Shown piece after piece: positions 3,646 through 25,120 of a stretch of 30,075 bases of DNA (position 1 is the first letter of the stretch; each line of letters opens with the position of its first letter). Source of the stretch: an uncultured bacterium (lineage in GTDB: Bacteria; DRYD01); the NCBI GenBank assembly GCA_937139605.1, contig CAKZQG010000017.1, positions 1 to 30,075 on the forward strand, given 5' to 3'. The notes beneath the pieces were generated by a model. The model was not told the DNA's origin. It was given only the letters and a program-made list of their open reading frames with translations, and searched no databases. Both the position numbers and the translations under genes were made by a program.

Positions 3646-5076
3646 TTAGTTATTAATGTCTTTTTTAATTTCTTCTTTTTTTACAATTAGTTTTAAATTA
3701 GCAGGATCTATATCAATAACAGTTAATAAATCGTTTATATTAATTTTACTAAGTTCTTGTGAGTTATTTAATAAAGCAGACCACAAATCTCCTTCTACCT
3801 TTACAATTAATTCATTCTCTTTTATAGCCATAACCTTAGCTTGTTTTCCAATAATAGATTCAATCCCAAATTTAGGTTTATTTTTTAAAGATTTAAAAAT
3901 ATAATAAATTACAGTTAAAAAAATAATTAAGAAAATAGAACTAACAGTTAAGAAAAATACTACAGGAGGTTTATAAAAAATATTACTATTTTTAAAAGCT
4001 AAAATAGTCCCAGTAATAAGTAAAACAGTGCCAAGGATAAAAGAAACCCCATAGGTACTAGCCTTTATTTCTATAAGATAGATAATAAAGGCGGCTATAA
4101 TGAGTGCAATTCCTAAGAAATTAACGGAAACTAAACCTAACCCAAATAGGCCCAAACTTATTAATATAATACCAGTAATTAAAGGAACTAAAGTTCCAGG
4201 ATGATTAAATTCTATTATAATAGCCCAAAATCCTAAAGTCAATAAAAAATAAGCGATCTCGGGATTAGCCAGGGTTATTAAAATTTTTTCTAATAAATCA
4301 GGTTCAATAGTATCATAAACTATGTTTTGATAGTTCTTTAATACAATAACTTCTCCAGTATCTAATATTAAGGGTTTATTTTTTATGTTTTTAAAAATCT
4401 CAGAAGGATCATCTAATACAAAATCAATTAGATTATTATTAAGTGCTTGTAAGCTTGTATAAGTTTTAGCATTAACAATAGCATCCTGAATAGCAAAATA
4501 GTTTCTATTTCTTCTATTAGCAAGGTTTTGACTAAAAGCTAGTAAAGCCTGAATAGCTTTATTTTGTAAAGTTTGATTATTAGTATTTGTAAGATCCAAA
4601 GGAGTAGAAGCCCCAGTAATTGTATCATTAGACATAACTGCAACATTCCCAGCAATTAAAACAAACATAGCCGCACTTAAAGCCTTACTACCTTTAGGAT
4701 ATACATAGCAAATAATTGGTTTATCAACTGAATAAAACAACTGTACTAAATCCATCATAGAATCAAGTAATCCGCCATAACTATCTATTTTAACTAAAAT
4801 AAAATCATATTTATCTTTATTCTTTAGCTTATTTTGGAAATAAACTAATAAAGGATTAGAAATTATTCCATCTATTGTTAATACCATAACCTTTATGTCT
4901 TTTTTATCTATTTCAATTAATTTATTTGAGTATATTTTTTTAATAGTTTTGACATTTTTATCTATTGCTCCAAAACTTAAATTGAAAAATTTAGAATAAA
5001 AAAATAAATAAAGAATAGAGAGTAAAAAGTATATAAAAAAAGCTACTTTATAATTTTTATTTAAAATTTTTAGCAT
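3646..5076 (-). CDS. nfeD: NfeD-family membrane-bound serine protease (ClpP-like)
   Basis: Long-form NfeD protein (NfeD1b type). An N-terminal hydrophobic signal/anchor spans residues 10-30. A ClpP-like protease domain follows (about 60-235), with the SYGGLLDSM oxyanion-region motif (99-107) and the nucleophile in KALSAAM (Ser134). Next come four or five membrane segments (about 270-395), then a C-terminal NfeD OB-fold domain (about 403-468). The general base of this family is usually a Lys in the region around 200. A Lys is present at 204, but I cannot be sure it is the equivalent residue. Family members usually act with a slipin/SPFH membrane scaffold and cleave its hydrophobic tail; no slipin gene is in this window. 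The start overlaps the end of udk by 20 bp. Confidence 0.9.
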   Translation of the reverse strand: MLKILNKNYKVAFFIYFLLSILYLFFYSKFFNLSFGAIDKNVKTIKKIYSNKLIEIDKKDIKVMVLTIDGIISNPLLVYFQNKLKNKDKYDFILVKIDSYGGLLDSMMDLVQLFYSVDKPIICYVYPKGSKALSAAMFVLIAGNVAVMSNDTITGASTPLDLTNTNNQTLQNKAIQALLAFSQNLANRRNRNYFAIQDAIVNAKTYTSLQALNNNLIDFVLDDPSEIFKNIKNKPLILDTGEVIVLKNYQNIVYDTIEPDLLEKILITLANPEIAYFLLTLGFWAIIIEFNHPGTLVPLITGIILISLGLFGLGLVSVNFLGIALIIAAFIIYLIEIKASTYGVSFILGTVLLITGTILAFKNSNIFYKPPVVFFLTVSSIFLIIFLTVIYYIFKSLKNKPKFGIESIIGKQAKVMAIKENELIVKVEGDLWSALLNNSQELSKININDLLTVIDIDPANLKLIVKKEEIKKDINN

Positions 5077-8592: not shown

Positions 8593-10629
8593 CTAATTTA
8601 ATAACTTTATTTTTTCTCTAATAACAATAGCTTTTTCAAAATCCATATTATCTGCTAAAGATTTCATATATTTTGTTAGTCTTTGTTTCAAATCTTTTTT
8701 CTTTTTTTCACTTAATCTATTTATATATTCAATAAATATTTCATCATCTACAAAAGCTATTTCCTCTTCACTAATTAATAAATCAACCTTAGTTAAAAGT
8801 TCTTTATTGTCTTTATAATCTACTCCTAACATTTCAAATACCATTTTTATAATATCCTTAGGTTTAGCAGGAAGAGGTTTAGGTTCTATTGAATTCATTT
8901 TATTATAATTCAACTGATATTCTCTTCTTCGGTTAGTTTCAGCAATAGCATCACTTAATGCTTTAGTTATTTCATTAGCAAAAATAATAACTTTAGATAC
9001 TAAATTTCTAGCAGCTCTCCCAGCTAATTGAATAATACTATTCTTACTTCTTAAAAACCCTTGTTTATCACCATCTGTTATTATTACAGTAGAAACTTCA
9101 GGTAAATCTAAGCCTTCTCTTAATAGATTAACCCCTACTAAGCAATCATAAACTCCTTTTCTAAAATCTGTTAATATTTTTATTCTATCAAGCGGCTCAA
9201 CTTTAGAGTGAATATAAGCAGATTTAACTCCATTCATTATTAAATACTCACAAAAATCTTCCGCCATTTTCTGAGTTAATACATTTATTATTACTCTATT
9301 ACCCTTAGATTTTTCTTGATTAATTTCATTTAAGATAGTTTCAACAATATTATCTGGTTTTAAGATAATTACTTCAGGATCAACTAACCCCGTAGGCCTA
9401 ACCAATAATTCAACAATCTTATTAGAATTACTCAGTTCAAAATCTCCAGGAGTAGCACTAACAAAAACTATATTATGAGTAAATTCAAGGAATTCTTCAA
9501 ATCTCAATGGCCTATTATCTAAACAACTAGGTAATCTAAATCCATATTCTATTAAAGTTTCCTTTCTATTTTTATCAGAAAAGTACATCCCTTTTAATTG
9601 GCTAATAGTTATATGGCTTTCATCTATAAAAGTTATAAATTTATCTTTAAAGTAATGTAATAATGTATAAGGTGGGGAGTTGGGGGGCCTGTTAGAAAGG
9701 TACCTAGAGTAATTTTCAATTCCTGGGCATGTACCGAATTTAGATAGCATTGCTAAGTCATATTCTACACGAGTTCTTAGTCTCTGAGCTTCTACTAATT
9801 TCCCTTCTTTTATTAATTCGTTATATCTTTGTTCTAAATCTTGTCTTATTTCTTTTATAGCTTTTTTTAAGATTTCTTCAGAAGTTATAAACATTTTCGC
9901 TGGATATATAGTAAATAAATCTACTTTTCTTAGTTTTTTAAAGTCAGGATAATTTATTATATAAATATTTTCTACAGTATCATAATCTAATTCAATTAAA
10001 ATAGGGTTATCTTCACCTTGAGGAAAAACAATAATATTATTTCCTCTAACTCTAAATTTCCCAGGATTTAGTTCATAGTTATCTTGTTCATAATAAATTG
10101 AAACTAGTTTATAAGTTATTTCATCTGTAGTTATTTTTTGGTTTATGTATATGTTAAAATAGGAGTTAATATATTCTTCGGGAGAACCGATATTATAGAT
10201 ACAAGAAACACTTGCAACTATAATAGTATTTTTATCAGATATAACTGCTTGGGTAGCTCTATGTCTAAGTTTATCTATATACATATTAATAACTGCTTCT
10301 TTTTCTAGGTATAGATCTAATGAAGGTACATAGCTTTCTGGTCTATAGAAATCGTAAAAGCTAATGAAATATTCTACTCTGTTATGTGGGAAAAAATTTT
10401 TGAATTCAGAGAATAATTGAGCTGCTAATACTTTATTAGGGGCAATAACTAAAGCCGGTAAATCTAATGCTTCTATTACTTTAGCCATTACAAATGTCTT
10501 GCCACTACCTGTCACTCCTAATAAAGTCGTAAATTTATTATTCTTTTTTATGCTTTGTACTATCTCATTTATTACTCTCCTTTGTTCATCTGTTTCTTTG
10601 TAATTACTTACTAAATTATACATATTCAT
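8593..10629 (-). CDS. uvrB: Excinuclease ABC subunit B (UvrB)
   Basis: Damage-verification helicase of nucleotide excision repair, which works with UvrA and UvrC. Visible are Walker A GVTGSGKTF (38-46), the DNA-clamping beta-hairpin YDFYRPESYVP (92-102), the DESH helicase motif, VSATPGDFE, the motif V/VI region REGLDLPEVS and IIQLAGRAARN, and a C-terminal UVR domain (about 640-678) that contacts UvrC. The length, 678 aa, is normal. The start codon lacks a Shine-Dalgarno, and a consensus TATAAT (10641-10646 on the complement) ends only 11 nt before the ATG, so the message may be leaderless. Its promoter and first codons are duplicated at 12247-12338. Confidence 0.97.
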   Translation of the reverse strand: MNMYNLVSNYKETDEQRRVINEIVQSIKKNNKFTTLLGVTGSGKTFVMAKVIEALDLPALVIAPNKVLAAQLFSEFKNFFPHNRVEYFISFYDFYRPESYVPSLDLYLEKEAVINMYIDKLRHRATQAVISDKNTIIVASVSCIYNIGSPEEYINSYFNIYINQKITTDEITYKLVSIYYEQDNYELNPGKFRVRGNNIIVFPQGEDNPILIELDYDTVENIYIINYPDFKKLRKVDLFTIYPAKMFITSEEILKKAIKEIRQDLEQRYNELIKEGKLVEAQRLRTRVEYDLAMLSKFGTCPGIENYSRYLSNRPPNSPPYTLLHYFKDKFITFIDESHITISQLKGMYFSDKNRKETLIEYGFRLPSCLDNRPLRFEEFLEFTHNIVFVSATPGDFELSNSNKIVELLVRPTGLVDPEVIILKPDNIVETILNEINQEKSKGNRVIINVLTQKMAEDFCEYLIMNGVKSAYIHSKVEPLDRIKILTDFRKGVYDCLVGVNLLREGLDLPEVSTVIITDGDKQGFLRSKNSIIQLAGRAARNLVSKVIIFANEITKALSDAIAETNRRREYQLNYNKMNSIEPKPLPAKPKDIIKMVFEMLGVDYKDNKELLTKVDLLISEEEIAFVDDEIFIEYINRLSEKKKKDLKQRLTKYMKSLADNMDFEKAIVIREKIKLLN

Positions 10630-12249: not shown

Positions 12250-12338
12250 TACTTACTAAACTATACATACTTATTTCATAAACTTTTTTTTATTATAAAA
12301 TTTTGATATAATCTCTTGTTATAAAGCGTTAAAAATTT
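12247..12338 (-). repeat. Direct repeat, copy 2: decayed uvrB promoter and start
   Basis: Second copy of the uvrB head. It keeps the TATAAT (12292-12297 on the complement), the A-run, and a Met-Tyr-Ser-Leu-Val-Ser-like start resembling UvrB's, but the frame is broken by a stop after the first codons. It overlaps the last codons of the res gene (stop at 12329-12331). It may still act as a promoter firing toward the Rpn gene. Confidence 0.82.
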
Positions 12339-15300
12339 AAAATAACTTTTATTTTTTTTAATATTTTCATAAGGTATTCAGAATCTTCTTGGAATATTAT
12401 GTTATTTTGTTCAAACATTTCCTTTGGATGATTTCCCTGACCAAATGTATATTTTATATCATTATAAGAAGATATGGATAGAATAAAAGCATCCAACTGT
12501 AAATTGGTATCCTTTTCGGTTAATTCTTCATTTATTTTTTTATTTATATCTTTGATATAAGAAATACAGAATTGAATTTTATCATCGTTAAAATTTCCGA
12601 GATTTCTAATTCCTTTTGGATCTATAAAAACCAGATGTTGTTTATTTTGGTTGTTAATCCAAATTATAAAATCTGGATAGAAGCCGGAGCTAATAAAGAA
12701 CCCTATGCCCTTTCTTGAAAGATTTCTAAGTAAAAATATATCATAATTTTCAAAAAGACTATTATTAGTATTCAATAAGTTTTTAAAATCTAATAGGAAT
12801 TTAGTTTCTCCTTTATTAAGTTTTATCGGCACTGATTTCACTTCTTCTTTATTTTTTTTCCAAATTACTAAAGGAGTATATAAATGATTATCAAAATGAA
12901 TAATAAATGATTCCCAATTTTTCCATTCAGAAGGTAATCTATTAGAATCCGGATTATATTCATTAAGCTGATTTATAACTTCTTTAATTTCATTTCCTAA
13001 ATTCTTAGGAATCTTGATTATAATTTCCTTATTTTGAGGGTACATAAAAGTATGATCATTTATTGTTAATAAATCTACTTCTAAACAATCCATAGTTTTT
13101 CTTTTTTCTTCCTTCTTATAAAATTTTATAATATAATCTTTTATGATAATTAAAATAATTTCATGAAATTTCTTTAATCCTTCAAAAGATGTTATTTTAA
13201 AAATAGGTTTCCCATTATTATTTTCAATATCTATTGATTCATTTCCCAAGGGTTTATCTAAGAATATTTTATATTCACTTGATTTTATTATCTTTTTTAT
13301 TACTTCCATATCTATAATCAAGTTATATAATCCTTTTATACTTTTGTAGTTAATAATTTCTGAATAAATATAATCCCAATCAATAAGATTAAAATAGCCT
13401 TCGGGAATTGTTAATGGTTCTTCTATTAGTGTCTGAGCAGTGCTAAGTTTTAATCCATGTGATAAAGTAATTTTTGATCTCAAATCAATTTTAGTAGCTC
13501 TCAAAATATTATTATCTAATGTAAGTAATATAGGATAATCAAGGAAATCAAAAGCATCTTTTGTTTTTATCGTATAAATTTTTCCTTCCCATTTTTGAGC
13601 GTTATTAAAATTAATCGGAATAATTATCTCTTGGTAATTTACTTCTTCACTTTCTATTGCTTCTAAGAAGGCATTAATATAATCTGCATTTAAACCGAAA
13701 ATAAAAAGTGTTTGTAATATTTTTAATTTATAATCTGGATTTTCTTCTCTTTTAAGTGAGTAATTTTTCCCTTTTAATCTTACACCCCTTCCAAAAAGCT
13801 GGATAATCTGTGTGCCTTCATTTCTTCCCATATTTATCAATCCCATATTTGAAACTCTCCAAGAGTTCCATCCTTCTACAAACTTTTTTGAGCCAATTAG
13901 AATATTTATATGAGAATTAATTTCATTAATCCCAAAAAATAAGGATTGACTAAAGTGATCCTGTTTAATTTCAATATTTAAATCTGAAATCAATTTTTTA
14001 AGTTCCCCTACATCTCCTACATTAATAACCCCAAAATATTTTCCTGTTGCAGAAGTTTTAACTCCTATCTCTCCATCAGAATTTTTTATTTCGTAAAGCT
14101 CTAATATACCTTTTCCATTAAATATTTTTTGATAAATATTTTCTATAAGAATGTTTAAATCAATATTTTTTATAAATTCAAATTTTCCTTTAAAAATATC
14201 ATTACCTTCATTATCAATAAGCCCAGATTTTTCTTTTAATATCTTTTCAATATTACTTTTAATATATTGTTGATCTTTAGTGTTATTTTATCTAAAAATT
14301 TAACTATTCTTAGTATATCAGAATTAATTCCCTTACCTGCAACTTTACTTCCAACAAAAATCCATAAAGGTTTTTCAATATTGTATATTCTTAATTCTTC
14401 TTTATATTTCTCAAAAATTTCCAATTGTTCATAAAAAGATAATAACCCCGCTAATAATAACAAGTCTTGTTGATCTTCTGTATAATTATTTTCTTTTACA
14501 TTATAGACATAAAAATCTTTGCCGTATCCATCTGTATAAAAATATTTATAAGAGTAATCAAAAATTATTGCTTTAGAATATTCTTGGAGTAAATATTGAT
14601 TATTTCCTATAACTTGTCCGAAAGTGGCAGAATATTCAAATAAAAATCCATTTTTTCCTATTTCTTCTCTCAATAGTTTCCACTTCTGTTCTTCTGTTCT
14701 TTGTCCTTTATGTCCTTCATCAATAAAAAGTAAGTTTTTTCCATCGAAATAAGATATATCTATACTTACCCCTTCACCCTTTTTTTCTTGAGTAAGTTTG
14801 TACATATCTATTACCAAAATTTCTCCATCTTTTGTTTTTAAATTATCTATATTTCCATTATATAATTTACAAGGAATTCCACTCAATTTCAATTCTTCAT
14901 AATGTTGTTTTGATAATCCTTCATTTGGAGTAATCAGGATTATGTTATCCCAATTATTTTTAGAATACTTCAAAATCTGCCAGTAGTTTATATGAATTAG
15001 AAGGGTTTTACCGCTACCTGTTGCCATCCAAAACCCAATTTTTTTTAAGTCTTTTTCATTAAAATAACTTATTTTCTCTTTATTTTCATTATTAAATTCC
15101 TCTAAAAATGCGTTCAATTCATTCAATAATCTTTGTTTATCATTATAATATTTATCTAAAAATATTTCTGTAAATAGAACTGCAAGATATTGGAAATATT
15201 TTAGGTTTAAGTTCGGTTGTCTTCTGCTTTGTCTTAATCTTTCTGTATAGTCTTTTATTGCTTGATCGTATCTTAGAAGTTCAGTTTCTAATTGGGGTTT

Positions 15301-15459
15301 TAAACCAATTAATACATCAAGAAAAAAACTTCTTCCTGTAGTATCGTATCCTTCTGTTGTATCTTTTAATTTTTCTCTTAACTCATTGAAATTATTAAAA
15401 CCAAAGAGATTAAGAAAGTATTTATTTAAAACCAGGTGTTTTTCAAGTTTTAAACTCAT
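12329..15459 (-). pseudogene. res: Type III restriction enzyme Res subunit, frameshifted
   Basis: Helicase-nuclease subunit of a type III restriction system. The first part (15459-14236) has Walker A MATGSGKTL, LITPNEGLSKQHYEEL, DEGH and YSATF. The second part has EGWNSWRVSNMGL, motif VI QLFGRGVRLKGK, and a PD-(D/E)XK nuclease site (YPDF, then FIDPKG about 18 residues on). The frame breaks within 14276-14289. Upstream text reads VKFLDK and the continuation in another frame reads KDQQYIKSNIEKIL, running without a stop into the listed second half (13993-12329). Joining them needs one added A, most simply in the A-run at 14286-14289. The repaired protein would be about 1044 aa, a normal Res length. 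ATG at 15459 is preferred over 15504 because it has an agga Shine-Dalgarno. Confidence 0.9.
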
Positions 15460-15545
15460 CTTTATATTCCTCGTTTTTTTATTTTTTATTATTTTTTTAT
15501 ACATATTTATTAATATCTTTAATATCCTTATTAATTTGTCACTTC

Positions 15546-18500
15546 TTATTGCTTGATATCTTCAAACATTAAGGATTTAAATAATGGTTCAATTGGTGTA
15601 AAATTTTTAACTATGGCGTCTCCGTTAATGTAAGTTTCATCTGGATTAAATTCTTGGATATTATTTTCAATGATTTTTTTATCTTTTTCAAAGTCAATAT
15701 TTTTTAGATTTCTCCAAACAATGATAATTTTTTTATTTTGTTTTTCAGCAAAAACGAAAACATATTTTCTCTCGTTATCTTCTAAAACTTTGTATTTATT
15801 TACATTCAATCCAATTAGATAATTAAATGTCTCAATTAAATCAACATTAACTATTTTTTGTTTATAATTTTCAATGATTTTAAGTTTGTAATTAAAGGGA
15901 TCTTTCATTTTATGAAGATTAAGGAAAGTGTTACTGTTTTTAGTTTCCCATTCAAGTATGTATTTAGTGAAATAATCTGGTAGTTCATAAAGGAGCTCAT
16001 TTTGTTTTTTATATTCAATATTTTCTCCGTTTTGTTTTTCAAATTCTATATTTTCTAAAGCATCTTCGTACTGCTCTAAAGTGTGATATTTAAAGAAACC
16101 ACCTGCTGTTTTCTCATTATATTTTTCTTTAATATTCTTTTCCTTTGAAATTCCTGAAGGATCATAAAATAAAACTTTTTTCATTCTACCTAGCACACCA
16201 ATTTTCTTTACTGGAATATATTTTTTTAATTTTTGAGAATATTTCTTACCTACATAAAAATTTTCAAAATGTTCTCCAATTTCAACTCCAATATATTTTC
16301 TTCTAAGCTTATGTGCTACTGCTGTAGTTGCTCCAGATCCAAGAAAGAAGTCCATAACTAGATCGCCTTCTGCTGAAGAAATTTCTATAACTCTTTCTAA
16401 AAGCTCCTCCGCATTTTCCGTTTGAAATCCCCAAGTTTGAGTGTACCCAGCAATATCAGTCCAATTTTCATTTTTTCATTTACAAGTTTTTCATCATAAA
16501 AACATTCAATAATATAATTAGGCTCATTACAATGATGTAAATTCAAATCAGAAAAATCTTTTATTATAAAACTACAATTTCTACATCTTAACCTCACTTT
16601 ATTTTTATTAATTAGTTCATCTAGTCTTCTTTGAGTGAATTCCCAATGTCTCCCTTCAGGAGCTTTTAATTTTAAACCAAATATAGATACCTCAGAAGAG
16701 GTTGCTCTTTCACCAACCCTTGTTCCTAATTGAAGCCACAACATTTCTTCTAATAGCTCTATTATTTTATTATTTTGATCATAAATATTTTGTTTTTCTA
16801 TTATTCTTTTTATTGCCTCAAGGAATTTCGATTCAAAGGTAGTCGTGTAATACAGATTAAACTTAAATTTTTCCCCATAAGAATAAATAAATAAACTATC
16901 TTTAGCTTTGGTAAGCTGTAATCCTTCTCCTTTAGTTTTTCCAGGAGTTGTTTGAACAATTACCTCATTTCTAAAATTATTCCATCCAAAAATCTCATTT
17001 AATAATAACCTTACATACATATTCCCATTATAATCACATCTAACAAAAATACTTCCTCTTTCATTTAATAGTTCTCTTGCTAGTTTAATTCTATTTTCCA
17101 GCATGGTTATCCATGTAGCATCTTTATAACCCACTTTATAAAGATAATCTGCTTCATTTTCTTTGTTAAAAGGCGGGTCAATATAAATTGTTTGGACTTT
17201 CTCATAGTACTTATTTAAAAGCAAGTTCAAAGCTTGAAAATTCTCAGATTTTATTAAAACCCCATCCAAAATCTCATCTAAACTATTCTTTTCACTTAAA
17301 GCAACCAATAACTTCCATTTAAAATCTTCATTAAAATATTTAGTATCAATCGGTAACTTCTTCCATCCCTTAAATAACAGTATATTTTTCTCAATTAAAT
17401 CCTCTCTTCCTTCCACCTTAACTCCAAACAATTCCTCCCATTCCTTTAACTGCTTTTCATTACCTAAAATTTCATCTAAAATACCTTCTAAAAATCTTTC
17501 CCCAGCATACTCCTTAATCTTATCCAAAGTAATTACATAATGAGTATCAATAATAAACTTCTTCTTCTCCCATAACTTCTTTTGAAAGTTCTCAATCTGC
17601 GCTAAAAAATCAATTATTTTTAAAGCAATATTTCTAAACGTACTAATCCCAATAAAGTAAATCCTTAACCTCTCAAAATACTCCCCCTGTGTTAAAACTT
17701 TTTCTAAAACCTGTAAGTCTTCTAATTTCAAAAACTCATTCTTAATATAAAAATCTAATTCTCTTTGTAAAAATCCCTTTAAATCCTTATGTATAAAATA
17801 ATCTGTTGTATTTCTTTTAGTATATCTATTAAGATGTTTTTCAATTAAAGTTTTTTCTCCTTCAATTTCAAAAATTAACCTAGCTAAACTACTTTCAGGA
17901 ATTCTTTCTTGTAAAATTCTTATTATTTCCTCATTTATTTTATCTTGTGATACCGACTGATTATACTTATATTTTTCCTCTTCTTCCTTTGTTAAACCCC
18001 TATATTCAAAATAAATATTTAACTCCTTCTTATTTTTATCGAAATCAAATATATTTTCATTTAAAACAAAAAATTTCCTTTCAAGTGCTTTTATGTTCCC
18101 TTTATCTTCCTGGGCATCCACAACTCTAAAATTAACTGTTAATGAATCAGATTTAACTTTAAAAGTATATTTTCTAAAATACTCTGTAGTTTTTATATAA
18201 TATTGATCTTTATTAACCCAATAAAGTAAAACTTCTTCTCCGTTGTAAGGGATAACATATTTTTCATTTTTTCCATACCTTCTTTTACTTATAAAATCCC
18301 CTTTATCATAATAACGAGAGAAAAAGTTTATTAAATGATTGTAAATATCTTTTTCCAAATCCTCTGAAATTATAGCTTTTTCTAGCTGATTTTTCTTCTC
18401 GTAATATTTCATACCTAAGCGTGTATTTTTAAATTCTTCTTTTAGTTCCCCATTTATAAACACAAAATCCCCGATATTTTCTTTTATTTCTTTTTTTACC

Positions 18501-18742
18501 TCCTCAATTTCTTTTTCTATTTTATTTATCTCTTCTTTTTGTTTTAATTTTAGTTGCTTGCTAATTTCTTCAATTAATTCTTTTTCAATAAAATTCTCAA
18601 TTTCTTTACGCTTGTAATTCATTATCTTATAAATCCCAAAATCTAGATCCTCTTTTTCAAATTGAAATATTTCTTTAAGCTTTTCCTTTAGTTTTTGCTT
18701 CAATTCATTTTTTTGGTTTAATTCATTTTTCTCATTTAGCAT
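15546..18742 (-). pseudogene. mod: Type III DNA-methyltransferase Mod, frameshifted
   Basis: Adenine methyltransferase and recognition subunit of the type III system. The N-terminal LREIF-like region with DLDFGIYKIMN is typical of these long Mods. Catalytic motif IV is DPPF (525-528, counted from 18751). The SAM motif DFFLGSGAT comes after it, the beta-class order. The first frame ends at 16397 and the second is open at 16355. In the other frame the missing link reads WTDIAGYTQTWGFQTENAEELL, a classic Mod segment, straight into the SAM motif. One A is missing from the run at 16471-16476 (six T on the plus strand). The start at 18742 is chosen because aaggag directly abuts the ATG at 18751 but is well spaced from 18742. 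A Cys-x2-Cys ... His-His-Cys cluster precedes the break. Repaired length is about 1066 aa. Confidence 0.92.
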
Positions 18743-18751
18743 TTTACTCAT

Positions 18752-18940
18752 CTCCTTAAAATGATAAGTTAATAATTATATTTATTTTTTATATTTAATT
18801 TCTTAGGCTTGTTAAATAGCAATAATCAAAAGTAGAAATTTTTATATACACCTTCTTTTATTTTAATATTAAAAAAATAAAAAACTCCTTTTATATTTTA
18901 AAGGATTTATAAAATGTAAAATTGAATTAAAATAATAAAA
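18752..18940. promoter_or_regulatory. Divergent intergenic region, mod / acyltransferase
   Basis: This 189-bp AT-rich gap lies between the mod start (-) and the acyltransferase start (+) and must hold promoters for both. A short inverted repeat, tccttt (18886-18891) / aaagga (18900-18905), lies about 35-55 bp before the acyltransferase ATG. No reading frame is supported. Confidence 0.3.
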
Positions 18941-20179
18941 ATGGGGTACAAAAAATTTTTTGAGCCTAAAGATAATATTTTTTTAATAAAATTAGCTAAA
19001 TCTATTTTACCATTAGCTTTAAAATTTATCTATAAAATAGAAAAAATAGAAATAGATAATAACGATATAGAAAAATTAAAGGATTTAAAATATAAGAGGG
19101 TAATATTATGCCCCAATCATCCTACTGCACTTGATCCAATTATAATGTTTTACTTATCTAAAGCTATAGATCATAACTTTAATTATTTAGCAGCATGGGA
19201 TATATTTGTAGAAGAGCCATTAAAGGGATACTTTATGCAACAATTAGGTGCATATTCCATAATAAGAGGAACTATAGATAATGATTCATTTAAAACAACT
19301 ATAAAACTAATTACCGAAGGCAAAAAATTTTTAGTTATATTTCCTGAAGGAGATACCTGCGGATTAAATGATTATTTACTACCATTCCAGCCAGGAGTAA
19401 TTCAATTAGCTTTCTGGGCTTTAGATGAACTACATAAAAACAATCAAGAAAAAATAAATGATCTCTTTATAATACCAATTGCTATAAAATATAAATACAT
19501 AAAAAGTATGAAAAACGAAATAATATCAGCTTTAAAAAGAATAGAAGAAAAATTAGGGTTATATTCTATAGAAAATGAAAAAAAAGATAATTACGAAAGA
19601 TTAATAAGAATATCTGAACATCTTTTAAGTATAGCAGAAAAATTCTATAACTTAAAACTCGAAGAAAATTTATCTTTTAACGACAGATTAAACAGAATAA
19701 AAGAATTTATAATAAACAAAATCTCAACATACTTAGATATAAAAATTAAACCAAATATGAATTTATTAGATAAAGTTAGAACTATTTTTAATACCATTAA
19801 CAGTATAATATATGTAGATAATAATTTAGAGACTGATCTTTCGGAATATGAAAAGAAACTATATAAAGAAAAGAAAGAGGAGTTAAAGAATTTTTATGAT
19901 GATTTACATAGAGTATGGAAGTTTATAGCGGTATATGAAGGGTATGTAAAAGAAGATATGTCAGATGAAAGGTTTTTAGAAATAATAAAGAGAATAGAAT
20001 GGGAAATATTTGGGAAAGAAAAAGTTTATGGTCCTTTAAAAGTTATTCTAAAAATAGGGGGAAAAATTAATTTATTAAATTATTATGAAGAGTATAAAAA
20101 GAATAAAAGAAACTGTATAGAGAATTTAATAAAGAAAGTAGAAGACAATATAAAAGAAATGCTAAAAAAATTAAAGTAA
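18941..20179 (+). CDS. PlsC-family lysophospholipid acyltransferase
   Basis: Acyltransferase of the PlsC / 1-acylglycerol-3-phosphate group, which esterifies a glycerolipid at the membrane. Motif I, NHPTALD (59-65), carries the catalytic His60 and Asp65. SIIRG (106-110) fits motif II. FPEGDTCG (134-141) is motif III. A hydrophobic stretch at 13-31 could be a membrane-associated helix. The core ends near residue 180. The remaining 230 residues are charged, mainly helical and unknown to me, making the protein much longer than ordinary PlsC (about 240 aa). The exact acceptor is therefore uncertain. There is no clear Shine-Dalgarno before the ATG. It is monocistronic, followed by a tRNA gene. Confidence 0.85.
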   Translation: MGYKKFFEPKDNIFLIKLAKSILPLALKFIYKIEKIEIDNNDIEKLKDLKYKRVILCPNHPTALDPIIMFYLSKAIDHNFNYLAAWDIFVEEPLKGYFMQQLGAYSIIRGTIDNDSFKTTIKLITEGKKFLVIFPEGDTCGLNDYLLPFQPGVIQLAFWALDELHKNNQEKINDLFIIPIAIKYKYIKSMKNEIISALKRIEEKLGLYSIENEKKDNYERLIRISEHLLSIAEKFYNLKLEENLSFNDRLNRIKEFIINKISTYLDIKIKPNMNLLDKVRTIFNTINSIIYVDNNLETDLSEYEKKLYKEKKEELKNFYDDLHRVWKFIAVYEGYVKEDMSDERFLEIIKRIEWEIFGKEKVYGPLKVILKIGGKINLLNYYEEYKKNKRNCIENLIKKVEDNIKEMLKKLK

Positions 20180-20224
20180 ATAAAGAGGAAAAAGTGGATA
20201 TTTATAAAATATATAAAATAATAG

Positions 20225-20297
20225 GGGCGGATAGCTCAGTGGTTAGAGCGCTTGCCTTACAAGCAGGAGGTCACAGGTTCAATTCCTGTTCCGCCCA
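20225..20297 (+). tRNA. tRNA-Val (anticodon UAC)
   Basis: A full cloverleaf can be drawn. The acceptor is GGGCGGA (20225-20231) with TCCGCCC (20290-20296). The D arm is GCTC/GAGC, and the anticodon stem CTTGC/GCAGG encloses the loop CTTACAA. The T arm is ACAGG/CCTGT with loop TTCAATT. The anticodon TAC reads Val codons. The discriminator is A and the genomic 3' end continues CTA, so CCA is added enzymatically. The 186 bp that follow (20298-20483) are AT-rich with nothing recognisable except the approach to the next start. Confidence 0.96.
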
Positions 20298-20483
20298 CTA
20301 TAATTCATAATCACTAATATCAAATTATTAACTACTTTTCCTTATATATTTCTATCTTTTAATATTAAAAACAATAAATGGGCAACAAACTAACTTATTA
20401 TAAATGTTTTACAAAGAAGTTTCAATTATTTTTAAATTATAAAAATAAAATACATAATTAATATTTAATTTACTTTTTATATA

Positions 20484-21444
20484 ATGGAAAAAATAATAGA
20501 AAATCTAAAATCGGAGTTAAAAAATATAAGAATTTTGTTTGTTATAAGTAGCTTAGCTATTAGCACTTTTGTTTTTTTAATAATATCTTCAATATTTTCT
20601 TTTATAATTATACCAATTGTTTTATACCTTTATTTTAATGTTATATGGATTAAAAAAGCTAAGAATATTATAATGTCAAATATAGATAAATTATTAAATA
20701 ATAAAGTTCCAAGCTTTAAATACTTTACAGATAAAAAAGAATCTAAAAACCTAAAAATTATTAGCATTATTAAGAGATATTCTTTTATTTAGCAATCCTA
20801 ACTATACGGAAATAATGAATAGATATAAATCCTATAAAAGACGAATACACCTTAATTTTGAAGACGAAATTATATTAGAAACTAATGAATTACCAAATCC
20901 TATAGAGATAATAGAATTAACTATATTAGATAGATATGAAGATAGCAAACTTTCTTACGTAGCAGAAGTAGAATATTTCAAAGGTCTAGTTATTTCAAAT
21001 AAAATAACTAAACCTACTAATAGTCAATATCCAAATATAATACTAATATATCATCAAAATCTTTTAAAAAATCCTGAAAATATAGATAGTTATTCTATAA
21101 ATACCTCTTATAAGGATTTTCAAAATTTAAATTTCAAAGTAATAAATCTACAAGAAAACATTTATTGTCTATATGACATTAACGATGAAAATTTATTAAA
21201 TGATCTAAAGCCAAAGTTCTATACCATAATAGAAAACATATATCAAAAAAATAACTATCTTAGTTCATTTATTGTTTTTAATCAAGATATTGTTTATTTA
21301 TTTTTAAATCATAAAGATTACATATTTAAAAGTCGGGATTTATTTAATGTACCTCCTTTTTTTGAAATTAAGGAAAAAGAATTAAATTCATTAGTGAATA
21401 ATTTTAAAAATCAATTGGAAAAAATATTAGAGCTAGTTTTGTGA
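20484..21444 (+). pseudogene. Array paralog A: DUF3137-like membrane protein, frameshifted
   Basis: First of four related genes. Its N-terminus (MEKIIENLKSELKNI) closely matches paralog D. One long hydrophobic hairpin follows (about 18-50), then the shared IWIKKAKNII motif. The frame breaks in the A5 run at 20753-20757. Removing one A joins it to a frame reading LLALLRDILLFSNPN, which aligns with LLSFLNDLLIFNNPV of D, and on into the 20815-21444 part. That part has the family features FEDEIILETNE, YFKGLVISNKI, NIYCLYDINDENLL, VYLFLNHKD and NFKNQLEKILELVL. The repaired protein would be about 319 aa. There is no Shine-Dalgarno before the ATG. It overlaps paralog B by 4 bp (GTGA). Function unknown. 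Confidence 0.8.
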
Positions 21445-22735
21445 ATTATTTTTTACAAATGAAAGAAATACTACAAAATTTAAAATTATATCTTTCAATT
21501 CTTAAAATAAGGACTTTTTTTAATCCATTAATATTTATTCTAACAATTATTATAAGTATTATCTATTATAAACATTTCTCAATTTTTTTTCTTAGTAGAT
21601 TTTATTTATTCTATTTTATTATTATAATTGGTCTTATGATTACATTACCCCAAAAAAGAAAACAAATAATTATTTTCAATGAATTATTTATCTTATTAAT
21701 TTTAATAGTACTAATATTTTCAGGTAGTATTCTAGATAATTTTTCAAAAGGAAAATTAATTAATACAATAGATCTTAGTCTTCCTGTTTTAATAATGGCT
21801 AATCTTTACTCAGTAGGATTATATTATATAGCTTTTACAACTTTTATAGAATACTTTAATAATGATTGGACTAATTTTTTTAAGAAAAAAATTAGCAAAA
21901 ATTTAAATAAAATAATTGATACAGAAAATATAGATAACATAGATATAAAGTATAATGAAGAAATTAAGGAAAGTAAAAATATAAGTTCGCAAAATCAATT
22001 ACTTAATTTTATAAACTATTTAATATTAATAAATAATCAAGATAATCTCAATAAATCGCTTGAATATATTAATAAAGATTTTCAATATCAAAAAAGTTTT
22101 AATTTACAAGATGAAATTATTATAAAAATTGATAACAACATTACAATAGAGATTGTAGAATTATTTTTAAAGGAAGAATATATAAAAATAAGAAACAGAA
22201 ATCCTATTTATTATAATATAATTAATTTTGAAGGGATTATAATATCTGCTAATTTATGGAATATATACAAAGAATTACTTAAAATCCAAAACATAATATT
22301 AATCTATAAATCTCATTTATTTGATGATCCCTTAAACATTAAATTTATAGATCTATCTGATTTATCTACAAAAGATACACCCAATATTTTAAAAAATATA
22401 AAAAACATTAAAAACATAAACTCCTTAAGCTATGAGATAGTAAATATAACAAATGAAATATATTGCTTATATAATTTAAAAGACAAAGAAAACATAAAAA
22501 TAATAGATGACATAATAAAAAATCAACAATTATACATAAAAATAATTACAAGAAGTCATTTATATTAATTTATCAAGGTATCATATACGCATTTATAAGT
22601 CATGAAGATAATATTCTTAATACTAAAAATATATTAGAACCACCTTTTTATTTAACATTAAATTCCGAAAAACTAGAAAAAACAATAAATGATATAAAAG
22701 AACAATTTAAAAAAATATTAAAGCTAGCTTTATAA
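21441..22735 (+). pseudogene. Array paralog B: DUF3137-like membrane protein, frameshifted
   Basis: Second paralog, starting at a GTG that overlaps the stop of A (an ATG at 21459 is also possible). It differs from its siblings in having about four membrane segments (28-43, 53-69, 82-96, 112-135) instead of two. The soluble part keeps LQDEIIIKIDNNITIEIVELFLKEEYIKI, FEGIIISANL and EIYCLYNLKD. The frame stops early at 22568. One extra A in the A5 run at 22538-22542 restores a frame reading NNYKKSFILIYQGIIYAFISHED, ILEPPFYL and QFKKILKLAL up to 22735, matching the C-termini of C and D. Repaired length is about 431 aa. Confidence 0.8.
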
Positions 22736-22784
22736 ACAAAAAATTTATTTTTAAATTTATTTTTAATAAGGGGGAGTTAAAATT

Positions 22785-23873
22785 ATGATAGAATTAAATG
22801 AAAATACTAAAATAGATTTAATAAATAAATTAACAAAACTTTTATTTAATTTAAGAACCCAAACACTATTAATATTCTTAATATGTTTTATAATATTTTT
22901 AATAATATTTGCTTATATATTAAATACAGAAGATATTGCATATATAATATTCGCTATCTTTTTTTCATTTGTTACAATATTTTTTGCTATTTATTATTAT
23001 AACATATATTGGCGTATAAATTCTAAAAAAATAATAATTGAAAATATCTCAAAGATGCTCAAAAATAATATAAATATAAAATATACCCCTACTCTTATTC
23101 CATATAACTTTAGTTTATTAACAGATAATCTAAAATACAATTTACTAAAAAATAAAAACCCTTCATTTAATTTAATTCATTTTATAAACGAATTAATACT
23201 ATCAAATACGGATAATTTAGAACAATCGATTTCTTATTTAAATAGAGGTTTCAGTTTATCTTTTGATTTCGTTTTAGAAGATGAAATAATTATAAAATCT
23301 GAAGATAATTTAGAAATACAAATAATAGAATTATTTTTAAAAGATAAATATACTAAAATAGAAGGTACTGGAAAAAATAGAAGAACTACAATAAAATATA
23401 TAACAAACTTTGAAGGACTAAGTATCTCAACAAAATTAAACAATCCCTCCATACCAACATCACAAAATCCAATTATAATTTATACTTCCAATTTATTTAA
23501 AAATCCATTAAATATAAAATTAAGAAGTTATAAGCAGATAATAGATTCTAAAGATAAACAATACCACTCAATAAATTTATCTGAAAATACATACTGTTTA
23601 TATAACATAAACGATGAAAATACCTTTAACAATATAAAAAATATATTAATAAAAATTTCAGATAAAGTTTATAATCAAAGAAAATATTATAATTCACTTG
23701 TTATTTATTATAATAATTTATTGTATTTATTTATAAACCATAAAGATGGAGTTTTTAATAGCAAAAATATATTAGAACCCCCATTTTATTTACTTGCCAG
23801 TATTAATAACATAGAAAAAATAATAAATAACTTTAAAAATCAATTAGAAAAAATACTAAAACTAGTTTTATAA
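22785..23873 (+). CDS. Array paralog C: DUF3137-like membrane protein
   Basis: Intact third paralog (362 aa) with the clearest Shine-Dalgarno of the array (aagggggag). Two membrane segments (about 27-46 and 50-72) form a hairpin near the N-terminus. The rest is a soluble domain, probably cytoplasmic. Order of shared motifs: LIHFINELILSNTDNL (130-145), FVLEDEIII (162-170), IIELFLKDKYTKIEG (180-194), FEGLSISTKL (209-218), NPIIIYTSNLFKNP (228-241), TYCLYNINDENTF (269-281), LYLFINHKDGVFN (313-325), ILEPPFYL (329-336), FKNQLEKILKL (350-360). This architecture (two TMs, 'FkGl' strand, 'F/Y-x-V/L-Y ... D/N' motif, late 'sF..y...lyl.i......F') resembles DUF3137. That assignment is my inference from remembered family patterns. 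Function unknown. Confidence 0.82.
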   Translation: MIELNENTKIDLINKLTKLLFNLRTQTLLIFLICFIIFLIIFAYILNTEDIAYIIFAIFFSFVTIFFAIYYYNIYWRINSKKIIIENISKMLKNNINIKYTPTLIPYNFSLLTDNLKYNLLKNKNPSFNLIHFINELILSNTDNLEQSISYLNRGFSLSFDFVLEDEIIIKSEDNLEIQIIELFLKDKYTKIEGTGKNRRTTIKYITNFEGLSISTKLNNPSIPTSQNPIIIYTSNLFKNPLNIKLRSYKQIIDSKDKQYHSINLSENTYCLYNINDENTFNNIKNILIKISDKVYNQRKYYNSLVIYYNNLLYLFINHKDGVFNSKNILEPPFYLLASINNIEKIINNFKNQLEKILKLVL

Positions 23874-23965
23874 ATAAAATAAAATAAGGAAATTAAGAAG
23901 GAAATGAAAAACAAAAATGAAAATAGAATAAAAGGACTAAAAAGAATAGGAAAAGTTAATAAAAT

Positions 23966-25120
23966 ATGGAAAAAATAATCAAAGAGTTAAAAAATTACTT
24001 AAATTTAATAAAACTTTCATTTTATTTTTCTTCATTCTTTGTATTTCTTCTTTACCTATCTTTTGATTTACTTTTTAACTTCCTAATTTTTAATTCCTCA
24101 AAATCGAATAATATTAGTCATATAATGATTATTACAATAGTAATAAATATTCTATTTTCTATTATACCTATTATAATAATTATATTTTTTTTATATAATA
24201 TTATTAATTCTTTATGGATTTCAAAGGCAAAAAATATAATAATATCTAATATCCTCAAAGAAATCAATTTAAATTTTGAAAAAAACTCTCAAGTTAAATA
24301 TTCTATAGATTACAAAAAAAGTAATAATCTAAATCCGTCAAGTAATTTACTTTCATTTTTAAACGATTTACTAATATTTAATAATCCTGTTTTATATTAT
24401 AAAGCTTTAAATTATATAAATAATGGATTTGTAAGATTAGTACCACTTTCCTTTAGATTAGAAGATGAATTTATAATAAGAAATGAGAATTTACATTTTG
24501 AAATGATAGAAGTATTCTTAACCAATAAATATAAAAGATACAAGAATTATAAAAAAATAGAAACTTTTTTTAAAGGACTAGCAATCTCAACAAAATTAAA
24601 AAATATAAAAAAAATTAATAATCCCATATTAATTTATAGCAATCTCCTTTTTACCAATCCTAAAGAAATAAAATTTCTTAAAACAAAATCTTTTAATATT
24701 AATGAATCTAAAAATGATATAATCAACTTACTTTACAATGAAATAAAATTAACAAATGTTTTCTATAATGCATATACCTTAGAAATAATAGACATTTCAG
24801 AACTAAACTTTGAAATAACTAATTTATTACATAATATTTATTGTCTATATAATATAGAAGATAAAGAGACTTTTTTTCATTTAAAGCTAATTTTTCAAAA
24901 AACAATTGAAAAATTTTTTATTATAAACAATTATACTAAATCTTTCATTATTTTTTATAAAGATATCATTTATTTATTTTTAAATTATGAAGATAATATA
25001 ATAAGTAATAAAAACTTATTTTACGTTCCATCATTTCTTAAAGCTAATTCTAAAAATTTAAACCCATTAATTTTCAATATAAAAAATCAATTAGAAAAAA
25101 TTTTAGAATTATTTTCATGA
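23966..25120 (+). CDS. Array paralog D: DUF3137-like membrane protein
   Basis: Intact fourth paralog (384 aa). Two membrane segments lie at about 17-43 and 52-80, followed by LWISKAKNIIISNI (83-96), the motif shared with A. The soluble domain has LLSFLNDLLIFNNP (128-141), FRLEDEFII (163-171), FFKGLAISTKL (201-211), NPILIYSNLLFTNP (219-232), IYCLYNIEDKETF (291-303), IIYLFLNYEDNI (334-345) and IKNQLEKILELFS at the end. It carries about 30 extra residues (about 244-285) before the YCLY motif compared with C. No Shine-Dalgarno precedes the ATG; a 24-codon cationic ORF (23904-23978) overlaps its start and might couple translation. It converges on trmI with a 31-bp gap. Confidence 0.82.
   Translation: MEKIIKELKNYLNLIKLSFYFSSFFVFLLYLSFDLLFNFLIFNSSKSNNISHIMIITIVINILFSIIPIIIIIFFLYNIINSLWISKAKNIIISNILKEINLNFEKNSQVKYSIDYKKSNNLNPSSNLLSFLNDLLIFNNPVLYYKALNYINNGFVRLVPLSFRLEDEFIIRNENLHFEMIEVFLTNKYKRYKNYKKIETFFKGLAISTKLKNIKKINNPILIYSNLLFTNPKEIKFLKTKSFNINESKNDIINLLYNEIKLTNVFYNAYTLEIIDISELNFEITNLLHNIYCLYNIEDKETFFHLKLIFQKTIEKFFIINNYTKSFIIFYKDIIYLFLNYEDNIISNKNLFYVPSFLKANSKNLNPLIFNIKNQLEKILELFS

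Follow-up and report, generated by a model that had tools for sequence, protein, structure and literature searches.

Frame breaks in a type III restriction-modification system and two neighbouring paralogs of an uncultured bacterium: probable recent decay of dispensable genes

Why should four genes on a single contig, the Res and Mod genes of a type III restriction-modification (R-M) system and two membrane-protein paralogs (A and B), each be split by a frame break? The contig was analysed entire (30,075 bases; hereafter the window) and belongs to a draft genome of 1.88 Mb (45 contigs, 88.5 % complete). Three options were offered in the initial annotation, namely relaxed selection with recent decay, phase variation at A-runs, and rescue by transcriptional slippage. 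The first of these gave the best fit, and recent ordinary loss-of-function indels in dispensable genes of a variable locus under relaxed selection are considered the probable explanation.

The broken genes and their relatives

When all frames were read and aligned with homologs, Res, Mod and paralogs A and B were each found to be split once with family sequence on both sides, as had been proposed. The observation that conserved genes of the window are unbroken was also confirmed, as no frame break was found in the 15 more broadly conserved window genes checked. The relevant features are the following.

8593..10629, minus strand: uvrB, conserved (52-77 % identity in six relatives), left edge of the apparently variable slot
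12329..15504, minus strand: Res of the type III system (PF04851 ResIII, E-value 3.5e-15; PADLOC REase_III on both halves)
~14275-14289, minus strand: Res frame switch, net -1 (alignment to intact homologs; new-frame stop just upstream)
15546..18751, minus strand: Mod of the same system (PF01555 and PADLOC MTase_III on both parts)
~16463-16478, minus strand: Mod frame switch, net -1 (A6 within a tandem AATGAAAA pair)
20225..20298, plus strand: tRNA-Val, adjoining the paralog array
20484..21444, plus strand: paralog A, from a membrane-protein family restricted to the lineage; break at 20753-20757 (A5), net +1
21441..22733, plus strand: paralog B, also from that family; break at ~22536-22556 (A5 at 22538-22542), net -1
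22785..23873, plus strand: paralog C, intact (all-frame reading, homolog comparison)
23966..25120, plus strand: paralog D, intact (all-frame reading, homolog comparison)

In the case of Res, one type III REase profile covers both halves in order (16-323, then 481-1125), and the PADLOC REase_III matches to the two halves had values of 1.7e-74 and 8.9e-67. The C-terminal nuclease (FYPDFIIW...DPKG) lines up with homologs. Res thus has a ResIII helicase and a C-terminal nuclease and lies adjacent to Mod, an arrangement by which a type III system is recognized. The break falls between two helicase halves, in an interval that contains only A4 and A3 and no real A-run.

The N-terminus and DPPF motif of Mod lie in 16397-18751, its FLGSG motif and C-terminus in 15546-16475, and one type III MTase profile covers the two halves in order (35-582, then 640-795). 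The N6/N4 methylase domain, with a DPPF-type motif followed by an FxGxG-type motif, is that of a type III Mod. The break sits in the 3' half and divides DPPF from FLGSG. Because its A6 belongs to the tandem AATGAAAA pair, an 8-bp duplication accounts for the break equally well as a single-base loss, and the homologs just upstream of the conserved NWTDI are too divergent to choose between the two. An A-run at all four breaks had been claimed, together with a single-base change at every site. The former holds for paralogs A and B (plain A5), is lost for Res and is complicated by the repeat pair for Mod; the latter is not secure for Mod.

Neither subunit has an intact frame, one break being present in each. 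Because the breaks part DPPF from FLGSG and the two helicase halves from each other, the Mod and Res products should, judged from sequence, be inactive. Codon usage is normal in the 3' fragments of both genes, which fits a recent loss.

Intact Mod and Res genes are adjacent in the genomes G052 (1021 and 1012 aa), G042, G023 and G016, and the Res homolog of G005 is open over 981 aa. The broken genes are therefore disrupted relative to intact homologs, as is expected of pseudogenes. No shared frameshift site was found among the homologs examined. In the same-family genome G002, both Mod and Res of a related type III system (L044, 2073-8849) are broken. Its Mod ends early, soon past the GEH motif, and a different frame encodes the C-terminal part; its Res is split at an A9 run. 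These positions differ from those in the Mod and Res of the window. Decay of restriction genes seems to recur within the family, G002 also being a draft whose breaks share the assembly caveat. An AAA-ATPase-like gene lies between Mod and Res in G002.

The same-genus genome G001 has uvrB (5' end only, at the contig end), then an AAA-ATPase/PD-(D/E)XK gene and, beyond it, a paralog, and no R-M system was found in its slot beside uvrB. Because G001 holds different content there, the slot is, on comparison of gene content, variable.

A search of 59 genomes found the paralog family only here and in a single genome of the same genus. Paralogs A-D (20484-25120) combine a beta-rich domain with two membrane helices predicted at the N-terminus. 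A Pfam search of the four returned no family at a meaningful score, and when a structure model (pLDDT 69, a modest confidence) was compared with the PDB, no credible match emerged. An acyltransferase gene (PF01553, 18941-20179) is intact here and had no match in the six relatives searched.

Run lengths and the distribution of breaks

The genome's own runs were analyzed in 373 genes (414 kb) against a synonymous-codon shuffle. A-runs of 4-8 occurred at 0.98-1.05 of expectation, A9 at 0.51, and A10-A12 zero times with ~17 expected; T-runs dropped off from length 7 up. The avoidance of A-runs from nine bases is in line with published work on many bacteria, in which selection against slippage-prone runs sets in at nine bases (PMC1088944). 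Among 414 genes, 207 interior A/T runs of at least 8 (8-10) were unbroken in intact genes, and unbroken runs of 7-8 were also found inside the broken genes. Since more than 200 long A/T runs are unbroken in intact genes, the runs at the breaks are not hypermutable or prone to slippage, and runs this short showed no excess fragility. The chance of at least A4 in intervals of break size was 0.22-0.40 each and ~0.008 for all four together. Such mild enrichment would be expected if many of the indels came from ordinary replication slippage.

A census of breaks was made in sampled stretches of the genome (~516 kb including the window, 486 kb outside it). The 516 kb were screened for coding potential and the candidates were then read individually (sensitivity ~61 % with simulated breaks). 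Candidates in L053, L058, L060, L073, L074 and L078 were rejected as adjacent genes with GTG or TTG starts, and the count leaves out L071 7177-8172 and two weak candidates (L063 and L067 11520-12278). Outside the window four further breaks were found, all in accessory-type genes and one of them at an A-run.

L050: Mrr_N-domain gene, break at A7
L055: protein kinase, no run
L062: AAA-ATPase/PDDEXK_9 gene, short repeat-like insertion
L067: MFS transporter, no run

In L062 (~4585-4690, minus strand; genome G000, contig C4), the gene is interrupted by a short repeat that forms an imperfect palindrome (TAACTCACGCATACTGCGTTTCGTTATA and related variants). Three copies of this type of repeat were counted in the 516-kb sample at up to 7 mismatches, and a resembling sequence seems to be present near the 5' end of the same gene.

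No break was observed in recognizable housekeeping genes of the 486 kb outside the window, at the screen sensitivity of ~61 %. In total, 8 breaks were found in 516 kb, all eight in accessory-type genes, where the core and accessory labels were taken from annotation with no systematic orthology test behind them. The initial claim that only accessory genes are broken was weak on the window alone (P = 0.05 by coding bases and 0.008 by gene, with classes set post hoc) and is strengthened by the larger sample. Break density was higher in the window than in the remaining sampled stretches (Poisson P = 0.0008), the window having been picked for its breaks.

These counts bear on the chief alternative to decay, that the breaks are indel errors of sequencing or assembly in the draft genome of an uncultured organism. 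Base loss at A/T runs is a common long-read error, the draft is in 45 contigs, and three of the four shifts have the sense of a lost base. However, the longest homopolymers should then fail first, yet the 207 long runs in intact genes are unbroken, as are the runs of 7-8 within the broken genes themselves. Two of the breaks outside the window lie at no run, and the restriction of all eight breaks to accessory-type genes also argues against error, which we consider unlikely. The initial reasoning that random error should strike housekeeping genes as well gains support from the larger sample, although error may still account for a single site.

Recent decay and the remaining alternatives

The other two options in the initial annotation, phase variation and rescue by slippage, are both disfavoured, on account of run length, break position and the relatives: the A4-A6 runs are shorter than the A9 at which avoidance begins, longer runs are unbroken, and G002 is broken elsewhere. 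Under phase variation, the A-runs would reversibly switch Mod, Res and the paralogs on and off, and such variation is classic for type III mod genes, mmyCImod for example carrying 12 AG repeats (PMC3498834). The window resembles such genes in having a frame break within a mod gene. It differs from them in lacking a long simple-sequence repeat, in having an A6 or an 8-bp repeat pair at the Mod break, and in that Res is broken too. The runs at the four breaks (A4, A6, A5 and A5) occur at chance frequency, rank among the commonest across all genes of this genome and give no indication of hypermutability, and the break sites lie at unrelated places. Independent switching of Res and Mod would moreover be expected to give restriction without protection, and the same-family system of G002 is broken at other sites. 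Phase variation is thus very unlikely.

Transcriptional slippage or ribosomal frameshifting might restore some full-length protein, and such cases are known from AT-rich endosymbionts and, elsewhere, from A9-A11 runs (PMC3017870, PMC4256274, PMC1088944). In Blochmannia and Buchnera, poly(A) frameshifts are thought to be rescued in this way; the Blochmannia frameshifts lie in homopolymeric tracts, and the genomes are rich in runs of at least 9 (PMC3017870). An AT-rich genome, single-base breaks and preservation of both frames are shared with the window. In contrast, the endosymbiont genes broken in their homopolymeric tracts, dnaX and dnaG among them, are kept under selection (PMC3017870), whereas here the breaks lie at runs of A4-A6 in genes that look dispensable. 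None of the four sites has an A/T run of about nine or longer, the length from which A-runs are avoided in this genome, and the homologs examined share no frameshift site, so that rescue is extremely improbable. That the split products are still made and functional, either by assembling as two polypeptides or because very short A-runs permit recoding, so that R-M is kept at low activity, is very unlikely.

The preferred explanation is therefore recent decay. Ordinary replication indels, some of them at short A-runs, would lately have disrupted Res and Mod as well as two of the four paralogs, one lesion possibly being an 8-bp duplication. The loss would be young, because each gene has only one lesion. 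We infer real breaks in the organism, inactive proteins and relaxed selection. The same sort of decay was observed elsewhere in the genome and in the related same-family system.

Decayed (pseudogenized) type III R-M systems are a known kind, and nothing unusual was found. As in other such systems, Mod and Res are recognizable over their full length and each interrupted once, other species keep intact homologs, and gain or loss is seen between relatives. Here, both subunits are broken together with two unrelated neighbouring paralogs.

An apparent pattern of frame breaks at A-runs can be checked against the run statistics of the genome itself. Only runs of at least nine are avoided in this genome, so the A4-A6 sites require no special mechanism. 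The locus beside uvrB would be a variable slot in which restriction and nuclease-like genes are gained and lost.
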